Assembly: GCF_003054705.1 (NCBI RefSeq)
Contig: NZ_QAYX01000019.1
Span: forward strand, 62,001-126,000
Direction: 5' to 3'
Source of the DNA: Opitutus sp. ER46
GTDB taxonomy: Bacteria > Verrucomicrobiota > Verrucomicrobiia > Opitutales > Opitutaceae
DNA length: 64,000 nucleotides
The notes below the pieces were generated by a model that was not told where the DNA came from, did not search any database, and worked only from the letters and a program-made list of their open reading frames with translations. The position numbers and the translations under genes are program-made. Positions 3,649-38,397 of this stretch are shown piece by piece (positions within the stretch are counted from its first letter, which is position 1; each line of letters starts with the position of its first letter).

Positions 3649-4075
3649 ATCTTTCTCTTTCTCGTTCTCTCAGACCGACTGCGCCGCCCGGCGCGGCCAT
3701 ACGAACCGCGGGGGGGGGGACAGTGGGCGCTCTCGCCAGAATCCGGACATTATCCCCCAGTATCTGGACATTATTCCGACGAGTATCTGGACATTATCGC
3801 TACTCGCTGATGATCGCTGAATTATAATTGCAGCCTCCTGCCCTGGGGTCGTGCACGGGAGGTCGTATGCGGGCGGTCCAGCGGGTGGCGTTCCTGCGCG
3901 GCAAGGAACCGAGTCAGGGCAGACAGAAGGAGGATGGAGCGGGTGAACGCGGGGGACGGCGGGCGGCCGGGGGGGGGACGCGTGGGCTTCAGGTAGCGGA
4001 GGTCACGGGTCGGCGGCGGCGGCCGTTGCCGCGACGACGGATGGGGCGGATTGAGAGAACGAGAAAGAGAAAGAG
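3649..4075. repeat. GA/CT-rich inverted repeat pair enclosing the 104-bp element
   Basis: The left arm at 3649-3672 contains TCTTTCTCGTTCTCTCA (3656-3672), which is the perfect 17-bp reverse complement of 4052-4068; extending to 24 bp (3649-3672 against 4052-4075) adds a single mismatch. The arms enclose 379 bp, including the 104-bp element. Similar GAGAACGAGAAAGA strings recur at about 11762-11777 and near 38050. They could be simple-sequence convergence rather than a mobile boundary, because the strings are low complexity. Confidence 0.6.
3741..3844. repeat. 104-bp spaced-repeat element, copy 1
   Basis: Three direct copies of an ATCYGGACATTAT core start at 21- and then 23-bp spacing (3741, 3762, 3785). 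About 25 variable bases follow, then the conserved tail ATTATAATTGCAGCCTCCTG plus CCCT (3821-3844). A second copy at 12525-12628 has exactly the same length and internal spacing, with the tail almost identical and the middle diverged. Spacing of about two helical turns suggests repeated protein-binding sites. IS21-like terminal repeats, a MITE or a regulatory site are all possible. Confidence 0.8.
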
Positions 4076-11236: not shown

Positions 11237-11285
11237 GTACTACTTCCGCGTTTCGGGGTGCATTGCGGTCGACAGCAGAAGGAGC

Positions 11286-11405
11286 ACCGCGAAAGGCGCG
11301 AAGGGGCGCGAAAATCTGCGGTCGGCGGGAGCGAGATGGGAATGCGTGAGCGGTGGCAGAGGACCGCGGGTTTTCGCGGGCTCGGTTCGCGGCCGTTCGC
11401 GGTTC
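11286..11405. repeat. Type-A palindrome, copy 2
   Basis: The left arm (11286-11316) begins ACCGCGAAAGGCGCGAAGGG and ends CGCGAAAATC. The right arm (11369-11405) contains TTTTCGCGGGCTCGGTTCGC and ends GTTCGCGGTTC. It starts 308 bp after copy 1. The interior is short and non-coding, so it looks like a gene-less version of the GxxExxY-type cassette ends. Confidence 0.8.
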
Positions 11406-11473
11406 TTTCTTCCGGCGATTTCGAGGGGCGGGATGACGGGGCGGCGACACCGGCTTACCAGAAGGGGGGGATT

Positions 11474-11572
11474 AACCACGAATGGACACCAATGGACACG
11501 AATGACCAGGCATCCCTATCCGCCACCTCGTCAGCGGTCTTCCTTCGTGTTCATTCGTGTGCATTCGTGGCT
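11474..11572. repeat. Type-B palindrome, copy 2
   Basis: The left arm (11474-11504) has three tandem units of ACGAATGGAC type: CACGAATGGA, CACCAATGGA, CACGAATGA. The right arm (11544-11572) is the inverted counterpart, TTCGTGTTCATTCGTGTGC continuing to ATTCGTGGCT. The roughly 40 bp between the arms are non-coding. Confidence 0.8.
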
Positions 11573-11618
11573 AAGCCTCTTCCGCGTTTCGGGGTGCATT
11601 GCGGACACCAGCAGGAGC

Positions 11619-11736
11619 ACCGCGAAAGGCGCGAAGGGGTGCGAGAATCTGCGGTGGGCGGGAGGAAGGAGAGAATGCGTGCGCGTGGCCGAGGACCGCG
11701 GATTTTCGCGGCTCGGTTCGCGAGCGTTCGCGGTTC
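11619..11736. repeat. Type-A palindrome, copy 3
   Basis: The left arm (11619-11649) begins ACCGCGAAAGGCGCGAAGGG; the right arm (11701-11736) begins GATTTTCGCGGCTCGGTTCG and ends GTTCGCGGTTC. It starts 333 bp after copy 2 and about 160 bp before the ACT-domain gene. A downstream GGGAGAACGAGAAAGA string links it to the GA-rich repeats found elsewhere in the window. Confidence 0.8.
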
Positions 11737-11898
11737 TAACGGCACGGATTTTTGCGGATGGGGAGAACGAGAAAGATGGGTTGGGAGATCACCCTTGAGG
11801 GGGTTCGCGGGAGTTCCGTGGGGGCGTCGTGTGCGGTGGTCGCCGCGGAGGCCAACTACCGGGTTGCGGAGCGGCAGGGGGCTGATCAGCTTCGCGGC

Positions 11899-25532: not shown

Positions 25533-26405
25533 ATGATCTACCTGCTCGGAGGTTCCGGATACGTCGGCCAGGCCTACCAGGCGCTCCTGCAGCGCAAGGG
25601 AATCCCCTTTCGTAATCTCCGCCGCGCGGAGCTCGACTACACCCAGCGCGCGACACTGGTGGAGGCGCTGCGCCGCGACCGGCCGGAGTTTCTGATCAAT
25701 GCCGCCGGCTACACGGGCAAACCCAACGTCGACGCCTGCGAGCTGCACAAGGCCGAGTGCCTGTTCGGTAACGCCGTCCTCCCGGGCACGATCGCCGAGG
25801 CCTGCGCCGAGGCGGGCGTGCCGTGGGGCCATGTTTCCTCTGGCTGCATCTACAGCGGCGCACGGCCCGACGGCTCCGGGTTCACCGAGGAGGACACGCC
25901 GAACTTCACGTTCCGCACCAACCACTGCTCCTTCTACAGCGGCACCAAGGCGCTCGGTGAGGAGGTCCTCGCCGGCAAGCCGCAGGTGTACGTCTGGCGG
26001 CTGCGGATCCCGTTCAACGCCATCGACAATCCGCGCAACTACCTGACGAAGCTCCTGCGCTACCCGAAGCTGCTTGAGGCCACCAATTCGATTTCGCAGC
26101 TCGAGGAGTTCGTCGCCGCCACCTTTGCCTGCTGGGAGAAGCGCATTCCGTTCGGCACGTACAACGTGACCAACCCCGGCGCCATCACCACGCACGAGGT
26201 GGTCGAGCTGATTCGCCAAAGCGGCGTCAGCCGCAAGGACTTCGTCTTCTTCAAGAGCGAGGACGAGTTCATGCACGTCGCCGCGAAGACCCCGCGCTCC
26301 AACTGCGTGATGGACTCCACCAAGCTCGCCCGCGCCGGCATCTCCCTCACCCCCGTCCGCGATGCCGTTTCCGCCGCCCTCCGCAACTGGCAGGCGACTC
26401 CCTGA
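25533..26405 (+). CDS. RmlD-superfamily reductase resembling plant NRS/ER (3,5-epimerase/4-reductase)
   Basis: The 290-residue SDR has a short Rossmann motif GGSGYVGQ at the N-terminus. It shares long signature strings with the eukaryotic bifunctional nucleotide-rhamnose synthase/epimerase-reductase (NRS/ER): NAAGYTGKPNVDACELHK, a GCI motif with a conserved cysteine, EEDTPNF, FYSGTKA (YxxxK), NPRNYLTK, YNVTNPG and PRSNCVMDSTKL. In that family one chain does both the 3,5-epimerisation and the 4-reduction of the keto-deoxy-sugar. With rmlB and rmlA nearby and no rmlC visible, this protein may complete a dTDP-rhamnose-type pathway. An ordinary RmlD-like reductase is the alternative. Confidence 0.8.
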   Translation: MIYLLGGSGYVGQAYQALLQRKGIPFRNLRRAELDYTQRATLVEALRRDRPEFLINAAGYTGKPNVDACELHKAECLFGNAVLPGTIAEACAEAGVPWGHVSSGCIYSGARPDGSGFTEEDTPNFTFRTNHCSFYSGTKALGEEVLAGKPQVYVWRLRIPFNAIDNPRNYLTKLLRYPKLLEATNSISQLEEFVAATFACWEKRIPFGTYNVTNPGAITTHEVVELIRQSGVSRKDFVFFKSEDEFMHVAAKTPRSNCVMDSTKLARAGISLTPVRDAVSAALRNWQATP

Positions 26406-26419
26406 CTAGTTTCCAGACA

Positions 26420-26876
26420 GGAACCGCGAAAGGCGCGAAACGACGCGAAAATCATGCCCGACCCGCTCCTGTACCGCGAGGAAGCATACCAGATCATCGG
26501 TGCGTGTTTCGCGGTCTATCGAGAAAAGGGACACGGCTTCGCAGAGGCGGTGTATCAGGACTCACTGGAGATCGAGCTTGAGCACAGCGCCGTGCCTTAC
26601 GAAGCCCAGCGCAACTTTCAGATCACCCACCGGGGGCAGCCGCTGCGGCACAGCTTTACTCCCAACCTCGTTTGTTTCGGCAAGATCCTGGTCGAGCTGA
26701 AAGCGGTGAGGACGCTGGCCGATGAACACCGAGCCCAGGTGCTCAACTACCTCAAGGTCGCAAAGCTGCAGCTTGCCCTGCTGGTGAACTTCGGGGCATA
26801 CCCTCAACTTCAGTGGGAGCGTCTCGTGCTCACCCACCCCTGATTTTCGCGTCCTTTCGCGCCTTTCGCGGTTTCC
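26420..26876 (+). mobile_element. GxxExxY gene cassette bounded by inverted repeats
   Basis: A 457-bp unit made only of two inverted arms and one gene. The left arm (26420-26454) begins GGAACCGCGAAAGGCGCG and ends ACGCGAAAATCA. The right arm (26841-26876) is its reverse complement with one inserted base and one substitution over 36 positions. The left arm runs into the A of the start codon and the right arm begins with the stop codon TGA, so there is essentially no other sequence. Arm units are CGCGAAA repeats, three per arm. No target-site duplication is evident. Gene-less palindromes with the same arms lie at 10978-11736. Confidence 0.78.
26454..26843 (+). CDS. GxxExxY protein (PDDEXK_3-like small nuclease-fold protein)
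   Basis: The 129-residue protein carries the name-giving motif in [10 protein letters not shown] (GFAEAVY = GxxExxY), then [18 protein letters not shown], and [11 protein letters not shown], where E-x-K forms the PD-(D/E)XK-like core. The last strand is [10 protein letters not shown]. The family is common and multi-copy in Planctomycetes, Verrucomicrobia and relatives; its biochemical role is not established. Start and stop codons lie inside the flanking inverted repeats (see the cassette). It interrupts the sugar-nucleotide operon between the NRS/ER-like gene and rmlB, in the same direction as the host genes. Confidence 0.9.
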
Positions 26877-26886
26877 CCTCTTCAAC

Positions 26887-27951
26887 ATGCAACTTCTCGT
26901 CACCGGTGGATGTGGGTTTATTGGGTCGAACTTCATTCGTCAGCGGTTGCTCGAACGCGGGTCCGCGGTCACGCGGATCGTCAACCTCGACGCGCTGACG
27001 TACGCCGGCAACCCCGCCAACCTGGCGGATCTCGCGTCGGATCCGCGGTACGTCTTCGCCCACGGCAGCATCGGCGACACCGAGCTCGTCAGCCGGCTCC
27101 TCGCCGAGCACCAGATCGACGCCGTCGTGAACTTCGCGGCCGAGTCGCACGTCGATCGCTCCATCGATTCGCCCGAACCGTTCGTCCAGACCAACGTCGT
27201 CGGCACGCTGCGCCTCCTGAATGCCACGCGGCTCTACTGGACCAAGCTGCCCACCGCCAAGAAGGACGCGTTCCGCTTCCTGCACGTCTCGACCGACGAG
27301 GTCTACGGCACGCTGGGGCCCAAGGATCCGGCCTTCACCGAGGAGACGCCGTTCGCGCCCAACTCGCCGTACGCGGCGTCCAAGGCCGCAAGCGATCACC
27401 TGGTCCGCTCGTACCAGCACACGTTTCACCTGCCGACGCTGACGACGAACTGCTCGAACAACTACGGGCCGTACCACTTTCCCGAGAAGCTGATCCCGCT
27501 GATGATCCTCAACGCCCTCGAGGGCAAACCGCTGCCGGTGTACGGCGATGGCCAGCAGATCCGCGACTGGCTCTACGTCGAGGACCACGCCGCCGCCATC
27601 TGGCTCGTGCTGCGCCAGGGCCGCGTGGGCGAGACCTACAACATCGGCGGGCTCAACGAGCAGCCGAACATCGAGATCGTGCAGCGCATCTGCGCGCTGC
27701 TCGACCGCAAGTCCCCGCGCGCCGACGGCCAGAGCTACACCACCCAGATCACGCACGTGGCCGACCGCCCCGGCCACGACCGCCGCTATTCGATCGATTG
27801 CGCGAAGCTCCAGCGCGAGCTCGGCTGGGCCCCGAAAGAATCCTTCGCCAGCGGCATCGAGAAAACCGTCGACTGGTACCTGAATCACCGCGCCTGGGCC
27901 GCGGAGATCACCGCGCGTTCCTACGCCCGCGAGCGCCTTGGCGTCGCCTGA
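26887..27951 (+). CDS. rmlB: dTDP-glucose 4,6-dehydratase
   Basis: Converts dTDP-glucose to dTDP-4-keto-6-deoxyglucose, the second step of dTDP-rhamnose synthesis. The 354-residue extended SDR has [10 protein letters not shown] at residues 7-16, [20 protein letters not shown], a [11 protein letters not shown] segment with the catalytic Asp-Glu pair, [13 protein letters not shown] (YxxxK), [15 protein letters not shown] and [16 protein letters not shown]. All are RmlB signatures. Ten base pairs separate it from the GxxExxY cassette and 27 bp from the four-helix-bundle cassette, so it is bracketed by two insertions. Confidence 0.97.
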
Positions 27952-27978
27952 TCGGCTGCGCCGATGCGCGGTGATCTG

Positions 27979-28428
27979 TAAGGCCTAAGGTGTAAGGTTT
28001 CGGACCAAGATTACCCATGGCATACCGGTCATTTGAGGAATTGGAGGTCTGGCAGTTGGCGCGGAGACTCGCGACGGACGTCTATCGCGAGTTGGCGGCG
28101 TGCCGCGATTTCGGGTTCCGGGACCAGATCACTCGGGCCGCGTGCTCTATCTCTAGCAATATCGCCGAGGGTTCAGAGCGGCTGCACGCATCTGAGTTTG
28201 TTCAGTTCCTCGGGTACGCAAAGGGCTCGGCGGGCGAGACCCGCAACCAGCTCTATCTCGCCGCCGACCTCGGCTATATGAATCCCGACCGCGCCGAGGC
28301 GCTGCGCGCGGACGTACGGAGGATCGGCGCGAAGCTTTACGCGCTGATCCGCAGCCTCCAGGGTTCCTGAGTTCGCCCCCTGCCGTCCCTCCGGTTCGGA
28401 CCTAAAACTCTACACCTTAATCCTTACC
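27979..28428 (+). mobile_element. Four-helix-bundle gene cassette bounded by inverted repeats
   Basis: A 450-bp unit. The left arm (27979-28006) is built of three units starting TAAGG (TAAGGCC, TAAGGTG, TAAGGTTT) and ends CGGACC. The right arm (28398-28428) is the imperfect reverse complement, reading GGACCTAAAACTC and then TACACCTTAATCCTTACC. About 27 positions align with several mismatches. The arms lie 10 bp before the start codon and 27 bp after the stop codon of the enclosed gene. Size and three-unit arm design resemble the GxxExxY cassette, although arm sequence and cargo are unrelated. Confidence 0.72.
28017..28370 (+). CDS. Four-helix-bundle protein (23S rRNA intervening-sequence protein family)
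   Basis: The 117-residue all-alpha protein shows the family hallmarks: FEELEVWQLARRLATDVY at the N-terminus, DFGFRDQITRAACSISSNIAEGSE in the centre (given here only as a region, residues about 36-60) and FVQFLGYAKGSAGETRNQLYLA. The family was first seen encoded within intervening sequences of 23S rRNA genes and is now known as free-standing genes scattered in many bacteria. Its molecular role is unknown. It lies inside an inverted-repeat cassette in the rml operon between rmlB and rmlA, co-directional with both. Confidence 0.92.
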   Translation: MAYRSFEELEVWQLARRLATDVYRELAACRDFGFRDQITRAACSISSNIAEGSERLHASEFVQFLGYAKGSAGETRNQLYLAADLGYMNPDRAEALRADVRRIGAKLYALIRSLQGS

Positions 28429-28453: not shown

Positions 28454-29386
28454 ATGCTATCCGATCCCGCGACCACCTCTCAGCCTACCTCCCCCAGCAC
28501 CGCCCCGCGTCGCGGAATCATCCTCGCCGGCGGCTCGGGCACGCGCCTGTACCCGCTGACGATCGCCGTGAGCAAGCAGCTGATGCCGGTGTACGACAAA
28601 CCAATGGTGTACTACCCGCTGTCGGTCCTGATGCTCGCCGGCATCCGCGAGGTGCTCGTCATCTCCACGCCGCAGGATCTGCCACTGTTCGAGCGCCTGC
28701 TGGGCACCGGCGAAAATCTCGGCCTCAAGCTGAGCTACGCCGCGCAGCCCAAGCCCGAGGGACTCGCCCAGGCGTTTCACATCGCCGAGGAGGTCGGCTT
28801 CCTGAAGCACGAGCCCGCGGCGCTCGTGCTGGGTGACAATCTCTTCTACGGCCACGACCTCGTGAAGTCGCTCGGCCACGCGGCGGCGCGGCAGGAGGGG
28901 GCGACAATCTTCGGTTACCACGTCGCCGATCCCAAGAGCTACGGCGTCGTCGAGTTCGCGCCGGACGGCCGCGTGCTCTCGCTCGAGGAGAAGCCGGCGC
29001 AACCGAAATCCAACTACGCCATCCCCGGCATCTATTTCTACGACCGCGACGTCGTGGCGTTCTCCCGCCGGCTGAAGCCCTCGAAGCGCGGCGAGCTCGA
29101 GATCACCGACCTCAACCGCCTCTACCTCGAAGCCGGCCGGCTGCACGTCGAGATCCTCGGGCGCGGCACGGCGTGGCTCGACACCGGGACGCACGAGTCG
29201 CTGCTCGATGCGGGCCAGTTCGTGAGCGTCATCGAGAGCCGCCAGGGCCTGAAGATCGCGTGCCTTGAGGAGATCGCCTGGCGGCAGGGCTGGATCGATC
29301 GCGCCACGCTTGACGCCAACATCGCCCGCCTCGGCAAATCCAGCTACGGCGCCTACCTCCGCCGCATCGCAGAGGAGAAGGAATAG
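28454..29386 (+). CDS. rmlA: Glucose-1-phosphate thymidylyltransferase
   Basis: First enzyme of the dTDP-rhamnose pathway, making dTDP-glucose from dTTP and glucose-1-phosphate. The 310-residue protein has the nucleotidyltransferase start GIILAGGSGTRLYPLT, then SKQLMPVYDKPMVYYPLS, LVLGDNLFYGHDL, VVEFAPDGRVLSLEEKPAQP and the C-terminal GRGTAWLDTGTHESLLDA. These are RmlA-specific. A Ser/Thr/Pro-rich N-terminal leader of about 20 residues precedes the core. The gene lies 26 bp after the four-helix-bundle cassette and 42 bp before a GT2 gene. Confidence 0.97.
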   Translation: MLSDPATTSQPTSPSTAPRRGIILAGGSGTRLYPLTIAVSKQLMPVYDKPMVYYPLSVLMLAGIREVLVISTPQDLPLFERLLGTGENLGLKLSYAAQPKPEGLAQAFHIAEEVGFLKHEPAALVLGDNLFYGHDLVKSLGHAAARQEGATIFGYHVADPKSYGVVEFAPDGRVLSLEEKPAQPKSNYAIPGIYFYDRDVVAFSRRLKPSKRGELEITDLNRLYLEAGRLHVEILGRGTAWLDTGTHESLLDAGQFVSVIESRQGLKIACLEEIAWRQGWIDRATLDANIARLGKSSYGAYLRRIAEEKE

Positions 29387-37916: not shown

Positions 37917-38071
37917 CAGAAGCTGGGACCAGCAGCCAGGGGTGTCCTTCTTTGAAAACGCCCGCCGCGATTCGCCGCAACCCTCAATTCCGGCGGCAGG
38001 CGCCGCCGGAGTGAAAGTGAGAGTGAAAGTGAAAGTGGCAGTCCAAGTCTTTCTCTTCCTCTTTCTCTCGA

Positions 38072-38119
38072 GGGATTGAGGGATTGAGGGATTGAGGGAT
38101 TGAGGGATTGAGGGATTGA
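38072..38119. repeat. Six perfect tandem copies of the octamer GGGATTGA
   Basis: Positions 38072-38119 are exactly six 8-bp units; one isolated further copy lies at 38284-38291. On the minus strand three units encode the 8-residue block NPSIPQSL in the frame of the 35772-37916 gene, if translation starts upstream at 38186. Because eight is not a multiple of three, gain or loss of one unit would shift that frame, the classic layout of a slipped-strand contingency locus. Confidence 0.9.
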
Positions 38120-38280
38120 GGTCCGCCTCCGGTTCTCGTAGCCGCCCTCGTTCTCGTTCTCGTTCTCGTTCCGTCACAGAGCGCACTGAGGCCGGATGAG
38201 GACACGGAGGAAAAGCCGCCGGATCTTCACTCCGTGCCCCTCCTCCGATCTCTGCCCTCCGTGTCCTGCCCGTTTCCGCC

Positions 38281-38311
38281 GCAGGGATTGAGTCGGCTCA
38301 CCAATCCCTGC
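38281..38311. repeat. Hairpin with 10-bp stem containing the octamer core
   Basis: GCAGGGATTG (38281-38290) and CAATCCCTGC (38302-38311) form a perfect 10-bp stem with an 11-nt loop. It lies about 87 bp before the ATG at 38398 of the glycosyltransferase and shares the GGGATTG core with the octamer array. It could be a terminator for leftward transcripts, a 5'-UTR structure or a binding site. Confidence 0.6.
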
Positions 38312-38397
38312 TCCCCCACTGTCACTCTCACTTTCACTCACCCTCAACTCCCCCGTTGCCAAGTTCGCCGTCGGCGCCTTCGCTCGGCGGCTCCTGC

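Follow-up and report, generated by a model that had tools for sequence, protein, structure and literature searches.

Two palindromic gene cassettes around rmlB in Opitutus sp. ER46 and a proposed REPIN-like reading of the GxxExxY and IVP protein families

Two small genes, one of the GxxExxY family and one of the IVP (four-helix-bundle) family, lie on either side of rmlB within an rml operon in the window, the whole 64,000-nucleotide stretch of Opitutus sp. ER46 DNA analysed here, and each is enclosed by inverted arms built of short tandem units. Inverted-repeat searches, shuffles and protein profiles confirmed this arrangement, which the first-pass annotation had described as a pair of cassettes with no transposase; in profile searches neither protein matched a transposase family, PF13366 and PF05635 being the only Pfam families hit. 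The explanation toward which we lean, and which we hold to be somewhat probable, is that the cassettes represent two parallel REPIN-like selfish systems, one of which includes the 23S rRNA IVS, with arms that would be read by the encoded protein. A broader claim is put forward tentatively, as one we judge somewhat improbable: that GxxExxY and IVP each define a bacteria-wide, REPIN-like class of selfish DNA without a classical transposase, whose protein reads tandem 8–10-nt or 7-nt units in mutually pairing arms, supports the copying of palindromes that lack a gene, and evolves together with them.

Features of the window are listed in Table 1. Cassette 1 (26422–26873) has 33-nt arms that are 97% complementary, with three CGCGAAA units each, and cassette 2 (27978–28427) has 23-nt arms of TAAGG-type heptamers that are 83% complementary. 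Both cassette genes are co-directional with rmlD, rmlB and rmlA. The cassette 1 arms score 61, and none of 300 shuffles exceeds 28. For cassette 2 the score of 28 was equalled in 2 of 300 shuffles, so that this arm pair is modest when taken alone; it is backed by a sister gene at another locus with the TAAGG unit and by the family-wide arm pattern. A second copy of rmlB, 97% identical, is found in the same genome at G000:C18:2645-3706.

Table 1. Positions of the rml genes, cassette genes, arms and gene-free palindromes in the window
Feature	Position	Strand	Evidence
Two gene-free mini-palindromes of the cassette 1 arm type (CGCGAAAGG) around a CACGAATGG-type mini (11469-11577)	11283..11737	.	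read by eye
rmlD, host operon gene 5′ of cassette 1	25533..26405	+	PF04321
Cassette 1 left arm, three CGCGAAA units, period 9-10	26422..26454	+	inverted-repeat search; score 61
GxxExxY protein gene, 129 aa, N71	26454..26843	+	TIGR04256 127.5 bits, PF13366, alignments
Cassette 1 right arm, inverted	26841..26873	-	inverted-repeat search
rmlB	26887..27951	+	PF16363/PF01370
Cassette 2 left arm, GTAAGGC/CTAAGGT/GTAAGGT, period 7	27978..28000	+	inverted-repeat search; score 28
IVP / four-helix-bundle gene, 117 aa	28017..28370	+	TIGR02436 109.3 bits, PF05635
Cassette 2 right arm, inverted	28405..28427	-	inverted-repeat search
rmlA, host operon gene 3′ of cassette 2	28454..29386	+	PF00483

The two proteins are from different families (PF13366 for the first, PF05635 for the second). 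The GxxExxY protein scored 127.5 bits against TIGR04256 (curated cut-off 35) and 123.5 against PF13366 (22), the IVP protein 109.3 bits against TIGR02436 (24) and 110.6 against PF05635 (33.8), and neither had a match in PADLOC or PHROGs. Among candidates limited by shared words, there are at least 4931 homologues of the former and at least 484 of the latter. In alignments the GxxExxY copy keeps E31, E81 and K83 and has N71 at a position where D is at least 90% conserved; since this residue stands in place of the PD-(D/E)XK catalytic aspartate, the window copy may be inactive. A relationship of GxxExxY to T7 endonuclease I appeared as a profile hint only (E 0.33 and 0.55) and was not relied on. 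The IVP profile matches the solved structures 2gsc, which is that of an IVP protein encoded by X. campestris (XCC0516), and 2rld. To our knowledge, IVP has no known enzymatic activity.

Inverted arms are typical of both families. Our census of 38 genomes, comprising that of Opitutus sp. ER46 and 37 relatives, began from the GxxExxY and IVP families. Profile searches gave 4 GxxExxY and 8 IVP matches in the Opitutus genome; overall, 28 and 27 of the 38 genomes had matches, 109 and 140 in number, from which 82 and 114 distinct copies were examined, matches that were close to contig ends, fragmentary, weak or unfetched being left out. One examined IVP copy had no flank, and the arm test covered 195 copies (82 GxxExxY and 113 IVP). 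At a threshold set by the 99th percentile of the shuffled null (score 27), inverted arms were present in 71 of 82 GxxExxY and 96 of 113 IVP copies; in an alternative null made of the same family in other genomes, which still includes orthologues, the 95% and 99% levels lie at 27 and 42. The best arm lag was 9 or 10 nt in 53 of the 71 GxxExxY copies and 8 nt in 10, and 7 nt in 64 of the 96 IVP copies and 8 nt in 20.

The same build recurs at a distance. Eighty GxxExxY loci from other phyla were the top-ranking ones among 317 relatives found with a single query, and are therefore no sample of the whole family; of the 77 with enough flank, 67 had inverted arms, with a best lag of 8 or 9 in 55 of these. 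They come from many phyla, including Planctomycetes, Brocadia, Chloroflexales, Acidobacteria, Nitrospina and Proteobacteria. Of 156 arms at 78 loci, 117 carry a strict motif of three units in the correct orientation and 15 carry it in the wrong one. Among plasmid IVP copies, 15 of which were fetched from 21 matching records (Bacteroidota, Cyanobacteriota, Gemmatimonadota and Pseudomonadota), 14 had arms, with a lag of 7 or 8; significant arms were seen in 0 of the 2 plasmid GxxExxY copies fetched (4 matches). The earlier view of one class of cassette stands as regards the shared arm design and the occurrence of gene-free arms, but the arms themselves are family-specific (7 nt versus 9–10 nt, or 8–9 nt in the other phyla).

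Arm similarity correlated with protein identity (Mantel r = 0.61 for GxxExxY and 0.48 for IVP), also when the comparison was restricted to pairs below 50% protein identity (r = 0.16 and 0.11); p was 0.001 in all cases, the floor of 999 permutations, and shared descent contributes to the correlation. Orthologous cassettes often have switched units, with the same switch in both arms (CACTGAT versus CACTAAT; CACGGAA versus CACGAAA). All 195 copies were compared, with identical treatment of comparisons inside one copy and across copies. The left and right arms of one cassette resembled each other more than left and right arms taken from different orthologues in 28 of the 34 groups of orthologues, with 1 equal (p = 2.3e-6), and in 153 of 192 pairs, with 7 equal and 32 less. 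Such concerted evolution of the arms would reflect gene conversion between them, or else selection for matching one reader or for mutual pairing.

Selection for pairing is central to the strongest rival explanation, which places the element at the RNA level: in the host transcript the arms would pair into a stem that RNase III cuts out, as it does with the 23S rRNA IVS, and their left-right agreement would be maintained by base pairing. Consistent with this, RNA folding of both window cassettes is better than that of 100 shuffles (z -4.5 and -2.9), cassettes are mostly co-oriented with their neighbours (same:opposite, 36:6 upstream and 30:6 downstream among 167 cassettes, for flanks with a clear long frame), and RNase III excision is reported for the Coxiella IVS in the excerpts of PMC4990558. 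Pairing alone, however, leaves unexplained the match from unit to unit inside one arm, as well as the dispersed gene-free copies described below, and we regard this explanation as possible but rather unlikely. Rfam gave nothing above the gathering score in the window, and at 14 element loci it gave 8 weak matches, every one under that score.

A second alternative would have the genes as passive cargo, with their arms acted upon in trans by a transposase unrelated to them. It would fit with the lack of a transposase family match in either cassette protein and with the existence of gene-free forms, but in the two families from which our census began the arm unit follows the protein in the Mantel comparison, and the families keep distinct arm periods both in relatives and in other phyla; we consider it unlikely. 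For the same reason the proposal that the arms rather than the cargo define mobility is not supported as worded: with unit sequences that vary in step with the protein, there is no need to regard the latter as passive cargo.

The idea that cassettes move as units fared better, in part. On nucleotide inspection of 9 copy pairs, the homology of 4 non-orthologous pairs ran from one arm to the other and no further. Two of these pairs each come from a single genome: L043 and L068 align over 453 positions at 92.7%, falling 26 nt short of the arm at one end, and L025 and L239 over 465 at 95.5%, with ends at most 11 nt from the arms. The other two match L047 with copies in other species at 77–79%, namely L052 (within 3 nt of the arms) and L051 (within 14 nt). 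The remaining 5 pairs were unclean, either because flank homology continued or because arms were poorly defined. Arms also occur without a gene. On the other hand, among 251 pairs at 60% protein identity or more, 152 were at orthologous loci, 84 were non-orthologous and 15 unresolved, which suggests that movement is slow; 115 of the 195 copies belong to ortholog groups. The sign by which ordinary vertical genes were to be known, the same genes at the same place in relatives, is thus partly present. The window IVP has a sister in G014 (70% identity, support 0.988) at a different locus, with the same TAAGG unit. It precedes an rmlB-like gene (29% identity) and has an arm score of 24, under the threshold, and the rml junction of G014 itself carries an IVP of another clade. 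No instance of movement was observed. At the rml junctions and in the inspected copy pairs, where flanks are strongly diverged, reading by eye gave no target-site duplication.

Comparison of rml operons between relatives, which had been suggested as a way to find empty sites, revealed empty, full, deleted, mini and solo-arm states. Spacers were read by eye, at the rmlD-rmlB junction in 13 of 15 genomes with adjacent genes and at the rmlB-rmlA junction in 21 of 22. Of the 13 rmlD-rmlB junctions, one has the full GxxExxY cassette (Opitutus sp. ER46), one an internally deleted copy (G011), one a solo right arm (G005) and two other repeat palindromes or arrays (G002 and G004); 8 are without such an element, with spacers of 8–88 bp, one of these, that of G018, having a two-unit heptamer run. 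At the rmlB-rmlA junction (n = 21), IVP clade A is represented by the full cassette in Opitutus sp. ER46, an internally deleted copy in G002 and a C-terminal remnant with an arm in G005. G027 has an IVP copy there, and clade B is found in G012, G014, G018 and G021; GxxExxY-type mini-palindromes occupy the site in G008 and G019 and solo GxxExxY-type arms in G001 and G011, with none in 9. Both internally deleted copies, GxxExxY in G011 and IVP in G002, retain the ends of the gene. IVP clade B (support 0.962) is 40–46% identical to the window IVP. The host genes of the same genomes are closer to those of Opitutus sp. ER46: rmlA is 83–86% identical, rmlD, where present, 78–80%, and rmlB 85–87% in two genomes and 58–60% in the other two. 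We read this as at least two independent IVP arrivals at the rmlB-rmlA junction.

Gene-free palindromes and arrays are dispersed through several genomes. The counts of dispersed sites include overlapping sites. In the Opitutus genome, pairs of CACRGAG, the unit of its L001 cassette, occur at 51 sites, 3 of them in the L001 arms, and pairs of CGCGAAA, the window GxxExxY unit, at 30 sites, 4 of them in its own arms; the latter number 0–5 per genome in 37 relatives. Palindromes spanned 96–112 nt in 17 of 23 distinct pairs measured. The arrays that were read sit between genes, palindromes among them are also nested and in tandem, and no GxxExxY or IVP domain was present in the 20 array stretches read. 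Reversed-pattern controls were about 0 for CACRGAG (0 in the Opitutus genome), CACTAAT, CACTGAT and CGCGAAA, and reached 8 in one genome for GTAGYGR. The reversed TAAGG control was very abundant in G031 (113 and 125), possibly as another heptamer family.

Array abundance tracks the matching cassette, imperfectly. With phylogeny ignored and overlapping sites counted, arrays were enriched in genomes with the matching cassette for GTAGYGR (p = 4e-5), CACTGAT (p = 3e-4) and CACTAAT (p = 0.01). GTAGYGR has 15–102 sites in the five genomes with a GTAGYGR cassette, and also 63 in G014 and 34 in G008, despite the absence of such an arm in every IVP copy examined there (5 of the 5 matches in G014, and 6 of the 7 in G008, a weak one being left out). 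The CACTGAT maxima, 52 and 28, are in the two genomes with a fully matching cassette, followed by G016 with 11 and G004 with 8. For CACTAAT, G004 has 37 sites (mixed-unit cassette), G011 has 12, and G016, whose cassette bears CACTAAT, only 3. In G007 and G010, whose cassettes bear GGAGYGA, the dispersed arrays had been expected to switch to that unit too, but did not (0 and 2 sites outside the cassettes' own arms). TAAGG, the window IVP unit, has 2 sites in the Opitutus genome, one being its own arm, and 12 in G011 and 21 in G029, yet neither of these has a TAAGG cassette among the copies examined. With few sites beyond the cassettes' own arms, the low p-values for GGAGYGA and TAAGG rest mainly on those arms.

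Other stretches are composite. At L336, L338 and L341, CGCGAAA-type minis flank a CACGAAT-type mini on both sides, like the stretch at 11283-11737 of the window; it looks as if composite units had spread. An intergenic nest of array types at 38009-38339 of the window includes GAGTGAAAGTG inverted arms, with a unit like that of the L010 cassette of the same genome, CTTTCTC, a GGGATTGA run, TTCTCG and a CACAGAG/CTCCGTG mini-palindrome. At 3650-4074, inverted TCTTTCTCTTTC arms with a unit like that of the L011 cassette, also of the same genome, lie about 425 bp apart; a profile search of the genome placed no IVP gene between them, and the interior holds three copies of a (T/C)CGGACATTAT / TCTGGACATTAT repeat.

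Intergenic position of the arrays read and co-variation of unit and protein would also be expected if the tandem units were autoregulatory operators and the dispersed arrays a regulon, not mobile DNA. Element turnover is suggested instead by internally deleted copies with retained gene ends, by nested and tandem palindromes and by the differing occupancy of a given junction, and we hold the operator explanation to be quite improbable. The view that these are ordinary vertical genes with incidental simple-sequence repeats from polymerase slippage, already disfavoured and in our estimate very improbable, is in keeping with the many cassettes that are orthologous between species and with the over-representation of heptamer repeats in many bacterial genomes (excerpts of PMC4692102), but not with inverted matching on both sides of a gene (controlled by shuffles and by copies from other genomes), concerted arm change (28 of 34 groups), arm-to-arm copies elsewhere, empty and deleted rml sites, or reversed-pattern controls that are mostly near 0 (GTAGYGR up to 8; TAAGG abundant in G031).

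In the REPIN-like reading that we prefer, the two genes would each represent the gene-bearing, or full, form of a family of small selfish DNAs. Such elements end in inverted arrays with some three tandem units apiece, and the encoded protein would probably recognise the unit. The proposed reader of 8–10-nt arms is GxxExxY, with its PD-(D/E)XK nuclease fold, and that of 7-nt arms the IVP four-helix bundle. Internal deletion would give rise to gene-free palindromes of about 100 bp, which would spread with protein from a full copy and then decay to solo arms. The encoded protein would drive copying, and its substrate would be a paired-arm structure, whether cruciform, single-stranded hairpin or RNA stem. 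The 23S rRNA IVS would be an IVP cassette that entered an rRNA gene. On the broader and less probable claim, the IVS would belong to a large family, and an explanation would be at hand for orphan heptamer arrays in Xanthomonas, Nostoc and other genomes. Two widespread "hypothetical" families would thereby gain a testable role, with the arms as a candidate substrate to assay, and unexplained repeats such as heptamer arrays and rRNA IVS are offered one possible origin. The data suggest that unrelated proteins reached the same selfish-DNA design, and the recurrence of the build in distant bacteria, accompanied by numerous very small copies without a gene, points towards a type of selfish DNA that has mostly escaped notice. 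Cyanobacterial STRR repeats may belong with the cassette-type repeats. Arrays of TAACTGA in Beggiatoaceae, described in the excerpts of PMC4679880, may belong with them as well; those of a report on Thiomargarita repeats (PMC4853749) added nothing relevant.

MITEs are short elements with inverted ends, no transposase and internal deletions. The cassette minis share all of these traits, but no parent IS and no target-site duplication were identified for the cassettes, and the rml flanks are diverged. REPINs are thought to spread using the RAYT protein supplied by a full copy. The REPIN/RAYT system (compare PMC3116915 and PMC8266576) resembles the cassettes in having a gene-bearing form together with short, dispersed, gene-free inverted pairs between genes, and in a repeat type tied to the resident gene. 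It differs in that the cassette proteins have no Y1/HUH transposase match, and in that cassette arms are tandem 7- or 8–10-nt arrays and REPINs are made of single REP hairpins.

The following systems are likewise cited from excerpts of the sources. One known counterpart of cassette 2 is the 23S rRNA IVS with an S23/IVP ORF (Coxiella, Leptospira; PMC4990558), which shares with it the protein family as well as inverted repeats and tandem heptamers. The Coxiella IVS is 428 nt long and has an IVP-family ORF within inverted repeats, and 5′ of the ORF there are two or three heptamers in tandem; the IVS was called selfish, and ORF-based mobility was hypothesised (PMC4990558). In contrast, the window IVP lies between rmlB and rmlA and not in an rRNA gene, and the cassettes here are multi-copy, with locus-specific units, gene-free derivatives and a design shared with an unrelated protein family. 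IVP genes also occur in rRNA insertions of CPR bacteria (PMC11270868). Seven-nt tandem arrays like ours, GGGAATC in Xanthomonas and GGGGA(C/T)T in Nostoc, are over-represented between genes, and Xcc has 186 heptamer arrays and 70 cases of two convergent sites; the excerpts mention no gene-bearing form (PMC4692102). PF05635 resembles Avd of diversity-generating retroelements (PMC10053308), but no retroelement parts were noticed beside the window IVP gene. Among the matches listed from the open-licence literature, excerpts contained no report of arms around GxxExxY genes; for IVP, they placed tandem heptamers next to the gene in the Coxiella IVS alone (PMC4990558). Eighteen IVP genes are known in cas loci (PMC3936711), and on cyanobacterial plasmids we found three IVP cassettes with tandem-unit arms (L358, L443 and L445) inside CRISPR loci, in the settings cas6-IVP-cas4, twice, and cas10-IVP-cmr3.
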